From Hymenobacter aquaticus (GTDB lineage Bacteria > Bacteroidota > Bacteroidia > Cytophagales > Hymenobacteraceae), in the NCBI RefSeq assembly GCF_004765605.1, contig NZ_SRLC01000001.1, positions 1,178,001-1,242,000 of the forward strand: DNA of 64,000 bases, read 5' to 3'. Below are positions 28,073-37,648 of the stretch, one piece after another (positions within the stretch are counted from its first letter, which is position 1; each line of letters opens with the position of its first letter). A program made the position numbers and the translations under genes. Under the pieces are notes generated by a model, which ran no database searches, was not told the origin of the DNA, and saw nothing but the letters and a program-made list of their open reading frames with translations.

Positions 28073-28507
28073 ATGGTCTTGTTTGAAAACCGCTACCGCT
28101 ACCACGATTTGGGCCTTTTGCTGCTCCGCGTCGGGATTGGGGTGATGTTCACCATTCACGGCTACCCCAAGCTGATGGGCGGGCCCGCAATGTGGACGCA
28201 AGTGGGAGGCGTGATGAAAATGGTGGGCCTCGACTTTGCCCCCGCCGCCTGGGGCCTGGTCGCGGCCCTGGCCGAAGCCGTGGGTGGGCAGCTGCTGGCC
28301 CTGGGCCTGTTTTTCCGGGTGGCCTGCGCCTTTCTGCTGGGCACCATGCTGATGGCCACGCTCATGCACGTGCTCAGCGGCGACGATTTCAACGCCTACT
28401 CCCACGCCCTGGAATCGACCTTCCTGTTTCTGGGCCTGCTGTTCGTGGGCCCCGGCAAGTACAGCCTCGACCAAACCCTGTTTCCGGCCCGGCGGCGCCT
28501 CTACTAA
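28073..28507 (+). CDS. DoxX family membrane protein
   Basis: This is a 144-residue protein with four transmembrane helices (about 13-32, 55-78, 82-103 and 112-128) and the DoxX hallmarks LLLRVGIGVMFTIHGYPKLMG and a Pro-Gly-Lys-Tyr-Ser-Leu-Asp end. Bacterial DoxX proteins are inner-membrane proteins linked to redox stress or quinone metabolism; the reaction is not established. It ends 23 bases before the convergent lanC stop, with no terminator that I can see. Confidence 0.88.
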   Translation: MVLFENRYRYHDLGLLLLRVGIGVMFTIHGYPKLMGGPAMWTQVGGVMKMVGLDFAPAAWGLVAALAEAVGGQLLALGLFFRVACAFLLGTMLMATLMHVLSGDDFNAYSHALESTFLFLGLLFVGPGKYSLDQTLFPARRRLY

Positions 28508-28530
28508 GGGTTGGCGCGCAATGGCCGGCC

Positions 28531-29754
28531 TCAGCTAAAGTTTAGCAGGAACACGGCGTCCCAGGCCAGGGCCTCCGGGGTGGTGGCCAGGCAGCTTTGC
28601 AACACCAGACTGGTGCCCATCAACCCTTCCAGCAGGAAACTGCCGGGGCTCGGCGCGCTGCCAGGCGGGGCCGGGCTGGGTTCGGCCGGCGGGGCCGGCC
28701 AGCTGGTGTGTTCCAGCGTCTGCTCCAGCCAGTAGTCGCGGGCCTTGCGGAAATCGTCGTGCCGGCTTTCCAGGTAGAGCCGGTTGAAGATGTGCGCGAC
28801 GCCCGCCGTGCCGTGGCAAAAACCCGCGTCACTTATTGCCGTTCTTTCCGGCGTAGTGCGCTCCGCCGCCCCCCGGGCCAGGTGGTAGGCCTGCCGCACC
28901 CAGTCAGCATTCGCCAGCGCTTTGCCGGCAAACAGCAAGGCCGTGCACACGCACAAGTCGCCGTAGCACCAGGCCAGCCGGCTGGTGCGGCGCGCGCTGC
29001 CGGCGGCCGGGATAATGGAAGGATAGATATTGCCCGGCCCCCCGGCCCCGGCCTGCCGCAGCAGGTAGTGAATGCCGCCGGTGAGCAGCCGCGTGCAGTC
29101 CTCGACCCGCACGCCGGCCCCGATGCAGCGGGCCAGAAACACGAGCTTGCTGCTCAGGCCGTGCGCCAGCCCCAGATCGACGGCCCCGGCCGCGAAATTA
29201 TTCAGCCCCGACGCCTGGTCGTGCCAGCGGATTCCGGCCGCATCCCGCACGGCGGTGTCGCGCAGGCAGGAAATCAGCCCGTACAGGCAGTGGTCGGTGG
29301 CCGGGGTTCCGAGGCGGCTGAGCAGATAAAACCCGTTGCCGATGGCTCCGTGCAGAAAGTCGAGGTTGCCGGCTTGCAGCTGGGCCACCGTATAGGCCAC
29401 GATCAGCTCGTCGAGGGCCAGCAGCACGTCGTCCGCCTCAGCGTCGATCAGGCCTTCCGTTGCCAGCAGCTGAAACAGCACGCCAAAGCCGACTATGCCG
29501 TCGCAGTACGTCAGCGAATCGGCGGCCGTGTGCTCCATCGTATCCAGGGCCTGCTCCAGCAACGCGAAGGCGTGGTCGTAGAGCTCCCCCGAATCCTGCA
29601 TTTTGGCCATGTAGAAATAGTAGAGGATGCTCCCCCCCGGGCCGGCCATCAACGACAGGGCCTGGCCCGGGGGCGGGGGCGTCGTCGTCAGGGCCGCCTG
29701 GATTTCCTGGATTTTAGCCCGTACGCGCCGGGCCAGGCCGGTTTGCTCTATCAT
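28531..29754 (-). CDS. lanC: Lanthionine synthetase C-like cyclase
   Basis: This is a 407-residue LanC-type cyclase that adds Cys thiols to dehydrated Ser/Thr to close lanthionine rings. The zinc ligands are all present: Cys263 in WCYGD and Cys313-His314 in FCHGTAG, with His199 in LAHG as the likely acid/base. The alpha/alpha barrel repeats LDFLHGAIGNGFYLL and AVDLGLAHGLSSKL are clear. It is on the minus strand, divergent from lanB with 237 bp between. Together with lanB and the two lanA genes it forms a class I lanthipeptide locus. Confidence 0.93.
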   Translation of the reverse strand: MIEQTGLARRVRAKIQEIQAALTTTPPPPGQALSLMAGPGGSILYYFYMAKMQDSGELYDHAFALLEQALDTMEHTAADSLTYCDGIVGFGVLFQLLATEGLIDAEADDVLLALDELIVAYTVAQLQAGNLDFLHGAIGNGFYLLSRLGTPATDHCLYGLISCLRDTAVRDAAGIRWHDQASGLNNFAAGAVDLGLAHGLSSKLVFLARCIGAGVRVEDCTRLLTGGIHYLLRQAGAGGPGNIYPSIIPAAGSARRTSRLAWCYGDLCVCTALLFAGKALANADWVRQAYHLARGAAERTTPERTAISDAGFCHGTAGVAHIFNRLYLESRHDDFRKARDYWLEQTLEHTSWPAPPAEPSPAPPGSAPSPGSFLLEGLMGTSLVLQSCLATTPEALAWDAVFLLNFS

Positions 29755-29991
29755 TGCTCGTATGCTATGCTGCTCCCGGGCAGAAAACCCGCCCGACGGG
29801 CTTGAAGGTAGGAGTTTCGGGGAATATGCCGCCCAGGCAGGCGGCGGCCCAGATAACGCGGCCCGGGTTTGGCCGCTGGCTATCTTTTAGGCAGCTTTGT
29901 GCCTCTCAGCCCTGCGGGCCACGCCGGGCCATTCTCTCAATACTGCCCGCTTGCGGGCGTTGCTGTCCATCCTACCTATTCGTTAGCATCC

Positions 29992-32900
29992 ATGAGCTAT
30001 AGCATTTCCTTTCCGGAATTTATCGTCTTACGCACGCCCCTGCTACCCTTTACCGCTACCCACGACTTATCCGAAGAAACGCTGCGCGGTCTTTTCCAGA
30101 ATCCCCTGCTGACGGAAGCGCTGTTTATCGCCTCGCCCGATTTTTCGGGGGCGGTGCAGCAGTGGCTGGCCCACGAGCCCCTGGCCCCCAAGGATCGGGA
30201 CAAGCTGCTGCTGAGCCTGCGCAAATACCTGCTGCGCATGGCCTACCGCTGCACGCCGTACGGGCTGTTTGCCGGCATCTCGCGGGCGGCATGGGGGCCC
30301 GCTACCACGCTGCGGCTGGAGCCCCAGCGCAACTACGTGCGCCACACCCGCGTCGATATGGACTACTTATGCTCGCTGGCCACTACGCTGGGGCAGGACG
30401 AGGGAATCCGGGGCGCACTGCTGTACTATCCCAACAACACGCTCTACCGCGTGGGCAACCAGTACCGGTACGTTGAGTACCGCTTCCTGAAAAAAACGCG
30501 CCAGCACGAGCTGGTTACGGTCGACCATTCCGAGTTTCTCGACACGGTGCTGCAACTGGCCCGGCCCGGCCAGCCAGCGGCCGTGCTGGCCCAGGCGCTG
30601 GTCGGCCCGGATATCTCGCTGGAGGAAGCGGAGGAGTTTATAGCGGAAATCATTGCGGCCCAGGTGCTGGTGAGCGAGCTGGAGCCCGCCGTGACGGGCA
30701 CCGGCTACCTGCAACAGCTGCTGCGGGTGCTGCACCAGGCCGACAAGACGCACCCGGCCCTGCTTCACCTCACCCAGCTCGACCAGCAGCTCGCGGCCCT
30801 CGACCACTCGTTTCTGGGCAACACCCTGGGCCAGTACCAGGCCATCGTGCGGGGCATCGAGCAGCAGGGGCCAGAGGTTGAGGCCAACCATCTGCTGCAG
30901 GTAGACATGCTCAAGCCGACCAGTAGCCACACGCTCGGGGAAGCCGTGCAGGCGGAGCTTCGCCGCACCGTGGAGCTGCTGCACGGCCTGGGTAAGCACC
31001 ACGAAAACGAGGTACTGCACAAGTTCCGCCTGGCGTTTCTGGAGCAGTACGAGCAGCAGGAAGTGCCGCTGTTGCAGGTGCTGGACATGGAAATGGGCAT
31101 TGGCTACCCCGCCGACCAGCAGGCTAACACCGACCCGGCTCCCCTGCTGCACGACCTGCCCCTGGGTTCGAGCGTGCCCAGTGAAACCCTGCTCAAGTGG
31201 AATGCCTGGCAGGAGTTCCTGTTTGAAAAATACCTGCGCGTAACCAGCGGCCAGGATACGCACATCGTGCTGGAAGCCGCCGACGTGCAGCCCTTTCTGA
31301 CCCCGGCCACCACGCCCCTGCCTGCCTCGCTCTACTGCATGGGCGCGGTGCTGGCCGCGTCGACGCAGGCCCTGGACGCGGGCGAGTTTCAGGTGGTGTA
31401 CCAGGCGGCCGCCGGCCCGTCGGCCGCCAACCTGCTGGGCCGGTTCTGCCACCTGGACCCGGCCCTGACGGCCGACGTGCAGGCGGCCCTCCGGGCCGAG
31501 GAAGCCCAGCAGCCGGAAGCCGTTTTCGCCGAGATTGTGCACCTGAACCAATCCCGCATCGGCAACATTTCGACGCGCCCGGTGCTGCGGGCGTACGAAA
31601 TTCCGATTCTGGTGCAGGCCGGCGTCGACGAGGAGCATACCATTACGCTCGACGATTTGCGGCTGTCCGTTCGGGGCGAGCAGCTGGTGCTGCGCTCGGC
31701 CCGCCTGAACCGGCAGGTGATTCCCCGGCTTAGCTCCGCGCACAATTATTCCCTGCACGCGCTGCCGGCCTATCATTTTCTGTGCGCGCTGCAGGCCCAG
31801 CACGTAACCCCGGGGCTGAGCTGGAACTGGGGGGTGCTGCAGCAGGCCAAATTCCTGCCCCGGGTCAGCTACGGCAATACCATTCTGTCGGGGGCGAAAT
31901 GGCGGCTGAGCAAGGCCGAAACCGAGCCGTTCTGCCAGGCACCGGAAGCCGGACTGCTGGCCGCCGCCCACCAGCTGCGCCACAGCCGGAACCTGCCCGC
32001 CTGGATCGTGCTGACGGAAGGCGACAACAAGCTACCGATTCAGCTCGACTCCGTGCCGCACTTGCAGGTGCTGCAGGCCGTCTTGAAACAGCGCGGCGGC
32101 CTGCTGGTCGAAGAGTGCCTGTTTCAGCCCGATAACCTGCTGGTGACCGGCCCCGAGGGCGCATTTACCAACGAGTTCATCTTTCCCCTCAGCACCCAGC
32201 CCGTTGTCCCGGCGCCCCCCCGGGCCGCGCCCGCGCCACCAGCCGCCGCAGAGCATGCGCCCCGGCCGGCCCGCACTTTTTTCCTGGGCTCCGAGTGGCT
32301 GTACGTGAAGCTGTACTGTGGGCTCCAAACGGCCGACACCCTGCTCACGGAGGTTGTTCTGCCCCTGGCCGAGCAGCTGAAGGAGCAGGGAATCATCGAC
32401 AACTGGTTTTTTATTCGCTACCGCGACACCCAGCATCACCTGCGGGTCCGGTTCCACGGCGCCGGTGCCTTCTATGGTCCGGTTATCGAGGCCCTGCACG
32501 CGGCCCTGCGGCCGTACGCGGAAGCCAACCTGCTGTTCAGCCTCCGTACCGACACCTACCAGCGGGAAGCCGAGCGCTACGGCGCGCACAACGTCGTGCG
32601 GAGTGAAGTGCTGTTTGGCCACGACAGCGAGGCCACGCTCCGCATCCTGGACCTGCTGGGTGGCCAGGAAAGCGACCAGATCCGCTGGCTGCTGGCCCTG
32701 CGCAGCGTCGATTCCCTGCTCACCGACTTTGGCCGCAGCCTCGAGCAAAAGCGGCAGCTGCTGCACCGGCTGCAGCACAACTTCAAGGAAGAGCTGGCCA
32801 GCACCTCGGCGGCGGCAAAAAAGGCGTTTGGCAACAAATACCGGCAGGTCCGGCCCCAAATTGAGCACGTCCTGACGCCGGACCTCGCCCCGGATGACGA

Positions 32901-33150
32901 ACTGGCTCCGGCGCTGGCGGTTTTTGCCGAGCGCAGCCGCCAGTGGGCCCCCACCATCGAGGCTATTCTGCGCCAGGAGGCGGCCGGCACGCTGGAGGTT
33001 AAGCTGGACAGCCTGCTGGCCAGCTACGTGCACATGACCCTCAACCGCTTTTTCCGGTCGAAGCAGCGGCTGCAGGAAGCCGTCATTTACGATTTTCTGC
33101 ACCAGCACTACGCCTCGCTGGCCGCGCGTACGGCGCGGCAGCTTCAGTAA
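29992..33150 (+). CDS. lanB: Full-length class I lanthipeptide dehydratase LanB
   Basis: This is a 1052-residue protein. Residues 1-650 form the Lant_dehydr_N (glutamylation) domain, starting with FPEFIVLRTPLLPF and with LLRMAYRCTPYGLFAG near 80-95. Residues about 763-1035 form the SpaB_C/thiopeptide-type elimination domain with WLYVKLYCG and RYRDTQHHLRVRFHG. It uses glutamyl-tRNA to dehydrate Ser/Thr of the precursor peptides. ATG 29992 is the natural start; upstream codons to 29869 are not domain-like. The first gene on the plus strand, it converges on the lanA genes across a 27-bp terminator. Confidence 0.95.
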   Translation: MSYSISFPEFIVLRTPLLPFTATHDLSEETLRGLFQNPLLTEALFIASPDFSGAVQQWLAHEPLAPKDRDKLLLSLRKYLLRMAYRCTPYGLFAGISRAAWGPATTLRLEPQRNYVRHTRVDMDYLCSLATTLGQDEGIRGALLYYPNNTLYRVGNQYRYVEYRFLKKTRQHELVTVDHSEFLDTVLQLARPGQPAAVLAQALVGPDISLEEAEEFIAEIIAAQVLVSELEPAVTGTGYLQQLLRVLHQADKTHPALLHLTQLDQQLAALDHSFLGNTLGQYQAIVRGIEQQGPEVEANHLLQVDMLKPTSSHTLGEAVQAELRRTVELLHGLGKHHENEVLHKFRLAFLEQYEQQEVPLLQVLDMEMGIGYPADQQANTDPAPLLHDLPLGSSVPSETLLKWNAWQEFLFEKYLRVTSGQDTHIVLEAADVQPFLTPATTPLPASLYCMGAVLAASTQALDAGEFQVVYQAAAGPSAANLLGRFCHLDPALTADVQAALRAEEAQQPEAVFAEIVHLNQSRIGNISTRPVLRAYEIPILVQAGVDEEHTITLDDLRLSVRGEQLVLRSARLNRQVIPRLSSAHNYSLHALPAYHFLCALQAQHVTPGLSWNWGVLQQAKFLPRVSYGNTILSGAKWRLSKAETEPFCQAPEAGLLAAAHQLRHSRNLPAWIVLTEGDNKLPIQLDSVPHLQVLQAVLKQRGGLLVEECLFQPDNLLVTGPEGAFTNEFIFPLSTQPVVPAPPRAAPAPPAAAEHAPRPARTFFLGSEWLYVKLYCGLQTADTLLTEVVLPLAEQLKEQGIIDNWFFIRYRDTQHHLRVRFHGAGAFYGPVIEALHAALRPYAEANLLFSLRTDTYQREAERYGAHNVVRSEVLFGHDSEATLRILDLLGGQESDQIRWLLALRSVDSLLTDFGRSLEQKRQLLHRLQHNFKEELASTSAAAKKAFGNKYRQVRPQIEHVLTPDLAPDDELAPALAVFAERSRQWAPTIEAILRQEAAGTLEVKLDSLLASYVHMTLNRFFRSKQRLQEAVIYDFLHQHYASLAARTARQLQ

Positions 33151-33170
33151 GCTGGCCTGCGGACCGACCG

Positions 33171-33227
33171 CCGGCCAACAAAAAGGCCGAGACATTCTGG
33201 GAATGTCTCGGCCTTTTTGTTGGCCGG
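33171..33227. terminator. Bidirectional terminator between lanB and lanA
   Basis: Arms 33171-33197 and 33201-33227 are perfect 27-bp complements with a 3-base loop and A5/T5 runs placed for both strands. It starts 21 bases after the lanB stop and ends 27 bases before the lanA1 stop. Confidence 0.9.
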
Positions 33228-33253
33228 GCAGCTGCCTGGCGCTTAGCGCTTGC

Positions 33254-33412
33254 TTAGCAGCAACCGCAGGAAAGCTCAACTTTGGAAGTAGGCTTGTCGG
33301 GCAGCGATACTTCCACCAGGCCGCCTTTTACGGCGCTCATAGCCCGGGGGTCCAGCAGGCTCAGGGTTTGCTTGTTCAGGGACAATTTGCGGGTAATCTG
33401 CTTCTTTTTCAT
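33254..33412 (-). CDS. lanA: Class I lanthipeptide precursor peptide 1
   Basis: This is a 52-residue peptide. The leader (1-31) has a basic start MKKKQITRK, the LSLNKQTLSLLD recognition segment (11-21, equivalent to the FNLD-type box bound by LanB) and a Gly30-Gly31 cleavage site. The 21-residue core contains Ser36, Thr42, Ser43 and Ser48 as dehydration sites and Cys49, Cys51 and Cys52 as ring donors, ending in CGCC. Up to three lanthionine rings are possible. It follows precursor 2 by 57 bases, and both starts are preceded by the word ATTCCTAC. The gene is too short for usual gene finders. Confidence 0.9.
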   Translation of the reverse strand: MKKKQITRKLSLNKQTLSLLDPRAMSAVKGGLVEVSLPDKPTSKVELSCGCC

Positions 33413-33469
33413 ACTAGTAGGAATTGAACTTAGTGGAATTGGTAAACGTGAAAAACGGTAATGATTAAA

Positions 33470-33625
33470 CTAGCAGCAGGTGTAGGTCCGCTGGGTTTCC
33501 TGGGGTGGATCAGTACCCGAAATATCGACCATTCCGCCCTTGATGGCATTCATGCTCTTCGGATCCAGCAGACTCAGGGTCTGCTTGTTGAGGGAAAGTT
33601 TACGCGTAATCTGCTTCTTTTTCAT
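33470..33625 (-). CDS. lanA: Class I lanthipeptide precursor peptide 2
   Basis: This is a 51-residue peptide. Residues 1-22 are identical to precursor 1, and the leader again ends in Gly30-Gly31 with only four conservative changes (positions 23, 24, 26 and 28). The 20-residue core differs: Ser36, Thr38, Thr44, Thr47 and Thr49 are dehydratable and the only cysteines are Cys50-Cys51 at the very end. That allows two rings that must close from the C-terminus backwards. It is the promoter-proximal copy of a two-gene operon arising from tandem duplication. Confidence 0.9.
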   Translation of the reverse strand: MKKKQITRKLSLNKQTLSLLDPKSMNAIKGGMVDISGTDPPQETQRTYTCC

Positions 33626-33672
33626 AGGTAGGAATTAATGTGGGTAAGAAAATCTATTCACTATTTGAGCGC

Positions 33673-33704
33673 GGCAAAATACCTCCCCGGATAGCTTGAC
33701 CAAA
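33673..33704 (-). promoter_or_regulatory. Promoter of the lanA operon
   Basis: On the minus strand TTTG (33704-33701) is followed after exactly 19 bases by TATTTTGC (33681-33674), matching the Bacteroidota pattern TTTG-N19-TAnnTTTG at all but one or two positions. The likely start of transcription is about 45 bases upstream of the precursor 2 ATG. The surrounding 33650-33760 is markedly AT-rich for this genome. Confidence 0.55.
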
Positions 33705-33882
33705 TATAGATCTATATTATTTACTATACCTACTCCTATTGTACAGTTTTTTATTGCTTATTTTTTGTTTGCCCGCGGGGAAATCCAGTTTGCCCGGCTT
33801 CTTCCTGTGCCATCCACGTAATTTCCGGGATTGGCTCTATATTTTGACGCTAATGGCCTGGCGGCCGCTGCCGGCGTGACAG

Positions 33883-33890
33883 TATCTTTC
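33883..33890 (+). promoter_or_regulatory. -7-like box for the S41 peptidase gene (TATCTTTC)
   Basis: TATCTTTC differs from TAnnTTTG only in the last base and ends eight bases before ATG 33899, so the leader would be very short. Confidence 0.35.
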
Positions 33891-33898
33891 CTCCTTAT

Positions 33899-35638
33899 AT
33901 GTATACGTTCCGTTTTGCGTCCTATCTGCTGGCCCTGGGGCTGAGTTGCGCCGTCCTACCCGCGCGCGGGCAGGCGAGTGGCGCGGCACCCGCTGGGGCG
34001 GCGGCGCTGGCCCGTGCCCAGCCCGACATACCCACCCTGACGCCCCGGCAGGCCGACAACCTGGCGGCTTTGGTGCAGGTATGGGGAATGCTCAAGTATT
34101 TTCATCCGGCCGTGGCCGCCGGGCAGCGCGACTGGGATGCGGAGCTGGTGCGCCAGCTGCCTCCCCTGCTGGCCTGCCGTTCGGTAGCCGAGCGCAGCCG
34201 CCTGCTCAGCGCCTGGATTACCAGTCTGGGACCGGTGCCGGCCTGCCTAACCTGTGCCGCGCCCCCCGATAAACCGGTGCGCCTGTCCACCGACCTGGGC
34301 TGGGCCCGTAATAAGAAGCGCTTCAGCGCCCCGCTGCGCCAGCAGCTGGCTTTTATTGAAGCCAACCGCTACCAGGGACCAGCCTACTACGTGACAGCGC
34401 GCGGGTCTACGACGGTCTTTCCCCACGAGGAAGCCTACGCCGACCAGGCCTGCCCCGCCCAGGCCCTGCGCCTGCTGGCGCTGGGCCGCTATTGGAACAT
34501 GCTGCAGTATTATTACCCCTATTCCTACCTGCTGGAAGCGGACTGGGCCACGGTGCTGCCCGATTTACTGCCTCGCTTCGCGGCCGCCTCAACTCCGCTG
34601 GCCTACCGGCATGCCGCGCTGGCCCTGTTTGCCCGCGTGCACGATGGCCACGCCCGCTTTTACCCGCCTGACCCGCTGCTGGAGGCCGAGCGGGGAACGT
34701 ACCAGGTGGCGGCCGACCTGCAGTTTCTCGACAACGAAGCGGTGGTGGTGCGCGTGCGCCAGGATGGCCTCGTGCCCGCGTCGCCCCTGGCCCCGGGCGA
34801 CATTCTGACGTCCTTCGACGGCCGGCCCGTAGCCGATATAGTGCAGCAGCGCCTGCCCGAAACCGGCGGCTCCAACCGGGCGGCCCAGCTGCACACCATT
34901 GCCCAGAACCTGCTCTATTGCGCTACGCCGCAGGTGGAGGCGCAGGTGGTGCGGGCCGGCCAGCCGTTGCGCTTGGCCGTGCCAGCCGTAAAGGTGGGCT
35001 CGGTGCCGGCGGCCCAGCCGGCACCGGCCGACAGCATGTACCGGTTTCTGACGCCCGAGGTTGGCTACATCGATATGGCCCGTATTACCCGGGCGAAGGT
35101 GCCGGCCATCATGCGGGCCTTTGCCCGTACCAAAGGCATCGTGGTGGATCAGCGCAACTACCCCGGCGAGTTTGTGGCCACGCTGCTGCCGGCGTATCTG
35201 CTGGCGCGACCCGCGGCTTATGCCCGGGCCGTCGAGCGGGATCCTACCTACCCCGGCCGCTTCCTGTGGCAGGCCCCCGACACGGTGCGCCCCGCCGGCC
35301 CGGCCCCCTACCCCGGCCGCGTGGTGGTGCTGGTCAATGAAGTAAGCCGCAGTCAGGCTGAGTTTACGGCTATGGCCCTGCAAGCCACCCCGCACTGCAC
35401 CCTGCTGGGAAGCCAGACGGCCGGCGCGGATGGTAACGCCACCTTTATTACGCTACCCGGCGACCTGAAAACGCTGATGACGGGCATTGGCATTTACTAT
35501 CCCGACAACCGCGAAACCCAGCGCGTGGGCCTGGTGCCCGACGTGCCGGTGCGCCCCACGGTGACGGGCCTGCGCCAGGGACGCGACGAGCTGCGCGAGC
35601 GGGCCGTGGAGCTGATTACCCAGGCGCCGGGCAGGTAG
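33899..35638 (+). CDS. S41 family peptidase (C-terminal processing protease-like), exported
   Basis: This is a 579-residue protein with a Sec signal (PARGQ, residues about 20-24). A helical N-terminal region is followed by a PDZ-like segment (LVPASPLAPGDILTSFDGRPV, about 295-315) and the S41 protease core with the serine motif VSRSQAEFTAM, then QTAGADGNAT. S41 enzymes cleave near protein C-termini. It is the next gene after the lanA operon, in divergent orientation, so it is a candidate for the missing leader or core processing step; this link is inference only. Confidence 0.85.
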   Translation: MYTFRFASYLLALGLSCAVLPARGQASGAAPAGAAALARAQPDIPTLTPRQADNLAALVQVWGMLKYFHPAVAAGQRDWDAELVRQLPPLLACRSVAERSRLLSAWITSLGPVPACLTCAAPPDKPVRLSTDLGWARNKKRFSAPLRQQLAFIEANRYQGPAYYVTARGSTTVFPHEEAYADQACPAQALRLLALGRYWNMLQYYYPYSYLLEADWATVLPDLLPRFAAASTPLAYRHAALALFARVHDGHARFYPPDPLLEAERGTYQVAADLQFLDNEAVVVRVRQDGLVPASPLAPGDILTSFDGRPVADIVQQRLPETGGSNRAAQLHTIAQNLLYCATPQVEAQVVRAGQPLRLAVPAVKVGSVPAAQPAPADSMYRFLTPEVGYIDMARITRAKVPAIMRAFARTKGIVVDQRNYPGEFVATLLPAYLLARPAAYARAVERDPTYPGRFLWQAPDTVRPAGPAPYPGRVVVLVNEVSRSQAEFTAMALQATPHCTLLGSQTAGADGNATFITLPGDLKTLMTGIGIYYPDNRETQRVGLVPDVPVRPTVTGLRQGRDELRERAVELITQAPGR

Positions 35639-35890
35639 CCGGCAGTGCCTGGGGCGGGGAAATTTACGCCCGAAAGCCCCCTTCCCGTAAGGAGCGGCGG
35701 GAGAGGATGCGGACGGCCTTCCACGGGGCCAAACGCCTGGCACGCACGCCAGGGCACCCTGATTGGTCTCCCGGCTGGGGCAAGAGGAATCTGCTGCCGC
35801 GGCCGGCCCTGGTTCGGGCGGGCGGACCGGGGGCCGGAAGAAACCCGCCGTTTAGCTCTAGCTTCGCGGCTCTTTGCTACTTTCGCCCGC
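35639..35890. other. Intergenic, no gene; possible -7 box before the M14 gene
   Basis: I see no credible gene in this 252-bp space. TACTTTCG at 35878-35885, five bases before the ATG at 35891, resembles a -7 box. There is a weak Gly/Pro-rich open frame which I regard as spurious. Confidence 0.4.
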
Positions 35891-37648
35891 ATGCTTGCTT
35901 TCCTGCTGACCACGCTTTTAGCCGTTTCCGGCCCCGCTGCTCCGGCGGCCGACTGGCGCACGCCCTTTGAAAAAGGCAACGGCAACACCACCACGACCCA
36001 CGCCGAGTGCATTGCCTACTACCAGCGCCTCGACGCGGCCTACCCCGAAATAACCCTGCGCGAGGCCGGCACCACCGATATTGGCCAGCCGTTGCATGAA
36101 GTAGTAGTGTCGCTCGACGGGGACGCCGACCCGGTTTCGGTGCGCCGGAAAAACCGGCGGGTGGTCTTTATTCAGAACGGCATTCACCCCGGCGAGCCGG
36201 AGGGCATCGACGCGGCCATGATGCTGGCCCGCGACTACGTGCAGAAGAAAGAGCTGCGCCGGCAGCTGGCCGACGTGACGCTGGTCATCATCCCGATTTA
36301 TAACGTGGATGGCGCGCTGGTGCGCAACTCCACCACCCGGGCCAACCAGAACGGGCCCGAGAGCTACGGCTTCCGCGGCAACGCCCGCAACCTGGATCTG
36401 AACCGCGACTACATCAAGCAGGACTCGCGCAACGCCCGCGCCTTTGCCCAGCTGTTTCAGCGCTGGCAGCCCGACGTGTACGTGGACACCCACACCTCCG
36501 ACGGGGCCGACTACCAGTACACGATGACGCTGATTGCCACCCAGAAGGACAAGCTGCATCCGGTGCTCGGCCAGTACCTGACGGGTCGCCTGCTGCCGGC
36601 GCTGTACGGCGGCATGGACAAGCGCAAGTCGCCGATGACGCCCTACGTCGACTTCGAGGGCCGCACGCCCGACGCCCGGGGGTTGCAGGGCTTTCTGGAA
36701 ACGCCGCGCTACTCGACCGGCTACACCACCCTGTTCAACACCATCGGCTTCGTGACCGAAACCCACATGCTGAAGGCCTACACGCCCCGGGTGCGGGCCC
36801 AGTACGACTTCCTGGACCTGCTGATCCGGGCGGTGCACCAGGATGCGCCGGCCCTGGCCCAGGCCCGCACCCAGGCCGCCCAGCAGCTTGCGGTCCAGAC
36901 GCAGTTTCCCTTGGCCTGGCGGCTGGATACCACGGCGGTGGAGAAAATCAGCTTCCGGGGCTACGAGGGCAAAACCAAGCCCAGCGCGGTGAGCGGGCAG
37001 CCCCGCCTGTGGTACGACCGGCAGGCGCCCTACACCCGCACGATTAACTACTACAACACCTTCCGGCCCACCGTGAGCGTAACGCGGCCCCAGGCTTATC
37101 TTATTCCGCAGGCCTGGGGCGAGGTAGTGGAGCGCCTGCGCCTGAATGGCGTGCAGCTGCGCCGCCTCACCCGCGACACGACTTTGACCACGGAGGTCTA
37201 CTACATTGCCGACTACAAAACCGGGCCCCGGCCCTACGAGAGTCACTACCTGCACAGCCAGGTAGAGCTGCGCGCCGAGCAGCAGCCCCTCACCTTCCGC
37301 CGCGGCGACTACGTGGCCTCCCTCGACCAGCCCGCCGCCCGCTACCTCGTCGAAACCCTGGAGCCGCAGGCCACCGACTCGTTTTTCGCCTGGGGCTTCT
37401 TCGACGGGATTCTGCAGCAAAAGGAATATTTTTCCGACTACGTGTTCGAAGACGTGGCCGCCGAGCTGCTCCAGCGCGACCCGGCCCTGCGGCAGCGCCT
37501 GGACAAGCTGCGGGCCGCCAACCCGGCCTTTGCCGCCAGCGGTGCCGCCCAGCTCGGCTTCGTCTACCGCCAGTCGCCCAACTACGAAAAGTCGCACCTG
37601 CGCTACCCGGTGGTGCGCTGGCAGGGCGGCGCTTTGCCTCTGGAGTGA
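35891..37648 (+). CDS. M14 family zinc carboxypeptidase, exported
   Basis: This is a 585-residue protein with a short signal peptide. The M14 zinc site is present: GIHPGEPEG (His-x2-Glu, near residue 98) and DTHTSDG (second His), with the substrate Arg in LDLNRDY. A C-terminal region of about 250 residues beyond the carboxypeptidase domain is predicted beta-rich. It probably trims peptides or proteins outside the cytoplasm. ATG 35891 gives the signal peptide; an open frame upstream (from 35645) is not convincing. Confidence 0.9.
   Translation: MLAFLLTTLLAVSGPAAPAADWRTPFEKGNGNTTTTHAECIAYYQRLDAAYPEITLREAGTTDIGQPLHEVVVSLDGDADPVSVRRKNRRVVFIQNGIHPGEPEGIDAAMMLARDYVQKKELRRQLADVTLVIIPIYNVDGALVRNSTTRANQNGPESYGFRGNARNLDLNRDYIKQDSRNARAFAQLFQRWQPDVYVDTHTSDGADYQYTMTLIATQKDKLHPVLGQYLTGRLLPALYGGMDKRKSPMTPYVDFEGRTPDARGLQGFLETPRYSTGYTTLFNTIGFVTETHMLKAYTPRVRAQYDFLDLLIRAVHQDAPALAQARTQAAQQLAVQTQFPLAWRLDTTAVEKISFRGYEGKTKPSAVSGQPRLWYDRQAPYTRTINYYNTFRPTVSVTRPQAYLIPQAWGEVVERLRLNGVQLRRLTRDTTLTTEVYYIADYKTGPRPYESHYLHSQVELRAEQQPLTFRRGDYVASLDQPAARYLVETLEPQATDSFFAWGFFDGILQQKEYFSDYVFEDVAAELLQRDPALRQRLDKLRAANPAFAASGAAQLGFVYRQSPNYEKSHLRYPVVRWQGGALPLE

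Follow-up and report, generated by a model that had tools for sequence, protein, structure and literature searches.

Class I lanthipeptide precursors of Bacteroidetes have been described as carrying an LxLxKx5L motif and a Gly-Gly end in their leaders (PMC7268733), and production has been described for few Bacteroidota lanthipeptides, among them the pinensins and the peptides from Chryseobacterium and Runella, which were co-expressed in E. coli with tRNA-Glu and GluRS from the producing organism (PMC9993889). An ending in two adjacent cysteines is already known from other lanthipeptides: gallidermin has the C-terminus NSYCC (PMC6588697), and paraplantaricin TC318, which has four cysteines with the last two adjacent and for which four thioether rings have been proposed, ends in NSFCC (PMC7372301). 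In the epidermin group, the last cysteine is decarboxylated by LanD (PMC7372301). On the resistance side, the S41 protease NSR (nisin-resistance protein) has a Ser-His dyad and recognises the most C-terminal lanthionine ring of nisin (PMC4698656), and nisinase-related S41 proteases occur in many species, with functions given as unknown (PMC11251773).

Here, we analysed a 64,000-nucleotide stretch of the Hymenobacter aquaticus genome (the window), in which genes for a LanC cyclase, a LanB dehydratase, two precursors and an S41-family peptidase lie together as one island (Table 1). It is this combination that is new here. The locus consists of ordinary class I lanthipeptide genes with a core ending that is uncommon and has precedents, and the compact S41-bearing island is a more useful part of the finding than the core ending. 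No report of the locus was found among the matches listed for the literature on Hymenobacter or on Bacteroidetes/Bacteroidota lanthipeptides, the latter covering genome mining and the Chryseobacterium and Runella products.

Table 1 Features of the lanthipeptide island, its flanks and the second cluster of the same genome; positions are those of the window unless a contig or locus is named.
Feature	Position	Strand	Details
DoxX gene	28073-28507		left flank
Inserted island	28508-35828		~7.3 kb; right edge about 35828-35851
LanC cyclase	28531-29754	-	407 aa; PF05147, 101.8 bits
LanB, full-length dehydratase	29992-33150	+	1052 aa; glutamylation and elimination domains
Perfect inverted repeat	33171-33227		27-bp arms, 3-nt loop; between convergent lanB and precursor 1
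Precursor 1	33254-33412	-	52 aa; MKKKQITRKLSLNKQTLSLLDPRAMSAVKGG + core LVEVSLPDKPTSKVELSCGCC; ends ELSCGCC
Predicted core 1	33257-33319	-	21 aa, after Gly-Gly; Cys at 18, 20 and 21
Precursor 2	33470-33625	-	51 aa; MKKKQITRKLSLNKQTLSLLDPKSMNAIKGG + core MVDISGTDPPQETQRTYTCC; ends RTYTCC
Predicted core 2	33473-33532	-	20 aa, after Gly-Gly; Cys at 19 and 20 only
S41-family peptidase	33899-35638	+	579 aa; PF03572, 59.3 bits; inside the island
M14 peptidase gene	35891-37648		right flank
Second cluster	L008 6560-19092, and L212		five precursors, two LanC, LanB, S41, C39 transporter, HlyD-like protein
Second-cluster C39 transporter	C1:2435011-2437239		beside HlyD-like gene

Both precursors matched the class I lanthipeptide leader model NF038153 (39.1 bits for precursor 1 and 39.3 bits for precursor 2; cut-off 22), and a control search of 14 named genomes with this model returned no match. 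The LxLxKx5L motif is present in both leaders as LSLNKQTLSLL ... KGG, and the Gly-Gly boundary of the two predicted cores follows that of the leader family. The first-pass annotation had described nearly identical leaders and diverged cores served by one enzyme set. Indeed, 27 of 31 leader residues are identical between the two precursors, compared with six of 21 aligned core columns (including the two terminal cysteines), and one LanB and one LanC gene lie alongside. At the codon level, the leaders differ by 10 silent and four residue-changing substitutions, a ratio that fits a constrained leader and a core apparently free to vary, with n = 2 genes only. An rSAM-modified RiPP was considered as an alternative class and rejected, as the precursors scored 17.0 and 15.3 bits with TIGR04149, below its curated cut-off of 25. 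The search of precursor 2 against plasmids gave no match. GC content is 49% in the precursor stretch (33254-33625), against 64% for the window.

Domain and structural comparisons identified LanB as complete (PF04738, 1-649 of 649; PF14028, 1-255 of 255), and it aligned with a lantibiotic dehydratase (PDB 5ehk) and with NisB (4wd9). A thiopeptide assignment was rejected: the TIGR03891 match covers the LanB C-terminal domain only, and the locus also has a complete N domain and a LanC. In LanC, residues R259, C263, C313 and H314 align with the metal-site region of NisC (PDB 8byk, NisC 2g02), as do the motifs WCYG and FCHG with NisC; the aligned NisC residues are presumably the metal ligands. In a quick-method tree, the window LanB grouped with LanBs of three other genomes (G150, G114 and G188; five rows, support 99), and this clade then joined the LanB of the second cluster (seven rows, support 96), with the fork uniting the window, L074 and L077 poorly supported. 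The nearest named LanB among the matches listed is from Chitinophaga, and a LanB-pair scan of genome contigs found a match in at least five relatives. Elsewhere in this genome, another LanB match (C1:3029614-3032670) contains one TAG codon.

The inverted repeat downstream of lanB has 100% complementary arms and a fold of -52.7 kcal/mol (z -11.4), and is possibly a two-way terminator for lanB and the precursors. The consensus terminator scan of the region gave two sites versus 1.4 in shuffles and, with no excess, adds no support for this role. A consensus promoter scan gave one site versus 0.6 in shuffles.

Comparison with related genomes delimited the insertion. In all eight relatives examined, DoxX adjoins the M14 peptidase gene and nothing between the two genes matches LanB, LanC or S41; similarity to these empty sites stops at ~28507 and restarts at ~35828-35851 (edges from six of the eight relatives). 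These edges indicate that the island content is lanC, lanB, both precursors and the S41 gene. The M14 peptidase gene is found in 119 of 120 genus genomes. In a repeat search of 28300-36100, the edges of the island proved free of direct repeats. The island holds no peptidase other than S41 and no LanD, and the window gave no match to a C39 protease or transporter.

Seven NF038153 matches were found in the whole genome, the two in the window and five in a second cluster (C1:2.417-2.426 Mb). There, a separate 146-aa C39-like protein follows LanB, and the S41 gene and a lanC are co-oriented, 41 bp apart. One of the four C39 matches in the genome falls in the transporter beside this cluster, which is 66% identical to the transporter after a LanB of genome G150; along the tree, no other row lies closer to the window LanB than that transporter-linked LanB. 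A C39 transporter from elsewhere in the genome probably exports the window peptides and cleaves off their leaders at Gly-Gly in the process, and this exporter in trans would most likely be that of the second cluster. In G150, a precursor with an NF038153-type leader and LanC lie on one contig (L176), and LanB, a C39 transporter, an HlyD-like gene and S41 on another (L074). LanB and S41 are separated there by the transporter, the HlyD-like gene and a gene resembling a transposase (the latter two assigned by inspection); the two loci are perhaps one cluster split by assembly.

The cysteine pattern first noted in the two cores was confirmed. Precursor 2 has exactly two cysteines, which are its last two residues (TYTCC), precursor 1 ends in CGCC with three cysteines at -4, -2 and -1 (SCGCC), and all core Ser/Thr residues (five in core 2, four in core 1) lie upstream of the first cysteine. 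In random residue order, the chance of this placement is 1/190 for core 2 (both cysteines in the last two positions) and 4/1330 for core 1 (three cysteines in the last four), two post hoc values that are not independent because the genes are paralogues.

The first-pass annotation had proposed aligning more precursors to see whether terminal cysteine pairs are a family rule. This was not the case: only two of 93 distinct cores end in CC, both from this locus, and the same two are the only ones in which at least two cysteines are present and all lie within the last four residues. Four of the 93 cores end in C and four have no cysteine; among the 89 Cys-containing cores, three have no Ser/Thr after the first cysteine. 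Shuffling of 79 distinct cores over 5000 trials gave a mean of 0.58 CC ends, with two or more in 10.8% of trials. With two CC ends in 93 cores and 11% in shuffles, the ending is therefore a local feature and no family rule; it is real and rare, yet family-wide not statistically striking.

The cores were collected from sets that each include the window's own genome: family (leader match in 20 of 200 genomes), phylum (8 of 395), order (8 of 390, with a profile from this genome's own precursors) and genus LanB loci (LanB in 32 of 120 genomes), the sets of 200, 395 and 390 genomes being draws from larger groups. Leader matches were counted up to E 1e-4, and the 93-core set took in 14 of 18 rows new in a later search. 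Outside the counts were 17 distinct weaker rows, two of which have a single terminal C and none a CC end, and a precursor-like frame in locus L077 (E 3) that ends in TRQA. One genome (G404) carries an array of 19 precursors with NF038153-type leaders (L180 7004-10422), many nearly identical and several with one or no cysteine in the core.

The pattern [ST]xxCx-stop occurs in five of the 93 distinct cores, four of which are from this genome (RTCNCV, RTCDCV, RTYTCC and LSCGCC), and Ser/Thr at -5 together with Cys at -2 is thus common to the window cores and two second-cluster cores. The other three of the five second-cluster cores lack it, and two of these three carry a leader of the same type. 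From these endings, we infer that the [ST]xxC ring was probably inherited and that the last cysteine would be a local addition.

Lanthionine rings usually form between a dehydrated residue (Dha or Dhb) upstream and a cysteine downstream. Closure onto the C-terminal cysteines, which the first-pass annotation had regarded as backwards and constrained, is therefore the ordinary direction, and gallidermin and paraplantaricin TC318 already end in CC. Our main reading, to which we assign a probability of about 0.6, is that the inserted cassette makes two class I lanthipeptides with a bicyclic tail that are exported by a C39 transporter in trans, and that the S41 peptidase acts on the exported peptide. 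Judging from family membership, LanB would dehydrate core Ser/Thr residues and LanC would add the C-terminal cysteines to them. One ring, from Ser/Thr at -5 to Cys at -2, would be the inherited one, possible also in two second-cluster cores, and the extra last cysteine, present at this locus only, would form a further ring with a Ser/Thr upstream of it. The predicted product has an open N-terminal part and a compact tail of two crossing or nested rings, somewhat epidermin-like. Several topologies fit because both cores have more Ser/Thr than Cys; for core 2, the possible pairs include nested T13-C20/T16-C19 and crossing T13-C19/T16-C20. Formation of AviCys was rejected, and the product is expected to lack it, because no LanD is nearby: PF02441 had no match in the window or in the second-cluster stretch read, and the one PF02441 flavoprotein of the genome (C1:2501124) lies ~64 kb from the second-cluster transporter.

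Two other accounts of the product were weighed against the bicyclic tail. Only a single C-terminal ring might form, leaving the other terminal cysteine free, conjugated or in a disulfide within or between peptides. Adjacent cysteines are generally known to be sterically demanding, and the last cysteine is missing from both second-cluster cores with the ring motif, so that no adaptation of the cyclase to this residue is required. However, the extra cysteine is kept in both paralogous cores despite their divergence elsewhere, and for paraplantaricin TC318, with its adjacent last pair, four thioether rings have been proposed (PMC7372301), and we therefore consider the single ring unlikely. That both cores are decaying copies, which lost upstream cysteines and yield no active product, would agree with four of five second-cluster cores having cysteines further upstream than in either window core, but appears very improbable given the open frames without stops in both precursors, the mostly silent leader differences (10 of 14 codons) and the retention of Cys -2 and -1 in both cores.

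The S41 peptidase is probably exported, as suggested by inspection of its hydrophobic N-terminus. S485 and the D-x-H251 motif are invariant in 22 of 22 aligned S41 sequences, and Ala510 is likewise found in 22 of 22 at the position where CtpA aligns a Lys; H251 would belong to a putative Ser-His site. In sequence searches, the solved S41 structures closest to it were those of carboxyl-terminal proteases (E 2e-9), whereas the match to NSR is weak (E 1.1) and a two-sequence S41 profile search did not retrieve NSR. The predicted structure of the protein alone was unusable (pLDDT 37). Homologues of S41 were found in 55 of the 120 genomes of the genus; among the loci fetched away from lanthipeptide genes, ten of ten gave no match to the leader, LanB or LanC. 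Conversely, an S41 homologue is present at three of 47 LanB-bearing loci examined (those of the window, the second cluster and G150), all three in the seven-row LanB clade of the window (of 51 LanB matches, 45 lay whole in the window, L008 or 40 regions, two were cut and four lay outside).

The preferred role, with the peptidase most likely acting on the exported peptide and self-immunity as a first guess, has to be set against these distributions. As NSR is also an S41 protease and recognises the last ring of nisin, self-immunity is a testable idea; as the NSR match is weak and carboxyl-terminal proteases are closer, we treat it as a hypothesis only. A more specific version, in which LanB, LanC and two precursors make up a minimal mobile cassette whose S41 reads the C-terminal ring pair for self-immunity and coevolved with the cysteine pattern, and the orphan homologues in other species of the genus are resistance genes, is doubtful and offered tentatively. 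The enzyme could also mature the peptide rather than protect the cell, trimming the leader or the N-terminus after export. The window has no C39 match and S41 is the sole peptidase inside the island, but the leaders end in Gly-Gly, a C39 site, C39 proteases are often found in such clusters, and C39 transporters are present elsewhere in the genome, all of which makes this role unlikely. Finally, the gene may be a bystander carried along by chance, as many genomes of the genus carry homologues (55 of 120) and, of those fetched away from lanthipeptide loci, ten of ten lack lanthipeptide genes in their vicinity. We place this reading somewhat on the unlikely side, since S41 is missing from eight of eight empty sites, a homologue lies 41 bp from LanC in the second cluster, the G150 S41 lies about 5 kb from the G150 LanB, and the three LanB loci with S41 (of 47) all belong to the seven-row clade.

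The locus supplies one LanB/LanC pair together with two of its natural substrates, and as the cysteines of these are confined to one end, rings can be assigned simply. Within the cassette, S41 is a candidate for an immunity gene. The locus also corrects the idea that terminal cysteine pairs are a rule of the NF038153 leader family.

Compared with known systems, the locus resembles other NF038153 class I lanthipeptides of Bacteroidota in leader model, motif, Gly-Gly end and the presence of LanB and LanC. It differs in that only its two cores (2 of 93) have all cysteines in the last four residues, and in that the window cassette holds none of the C39 proteases often found in clusters of this family. 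The pinensins of Chitinophaga are likewise class I lanthipeptides of Bacteroidota, but are described with a split LanB (PMC7268733), in contrast to the full-length LanB of the window. With the epidermin/gallidermin group, the locus shares cores that end in adjacent cysteines with Ser/Thr upstream; that group differs by having LanD, which serves AviCys formation, and an S8 protease for its leader, both seen in the paraplantaricin cluster (PMC7372301), and its lipid II motif SxxxCTP(G/S)C is absent from the window cores. NSR and the window S41 peptidase appear to be alike in an S-x-A-E serine, a conserved His and the lack of a Lys at the CtpA Lys position, whereas their sequence match is weak (E 1.1) and NSR has been described as a resistance gene in other species and is not known from a producer's cassette. 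The second cluster of the same genome differs by cysteines further upstream in four of five cores, none of which ends in CC, and by its own C39 transporter with an HlyD-like partner. It is alike in its same-type leader in four of five precursors, in the [ST]xxC end of two cores, and in its homologues of LanB (37-40%), LanC (53%) and S41 (55-59%; 59% by tblastn).
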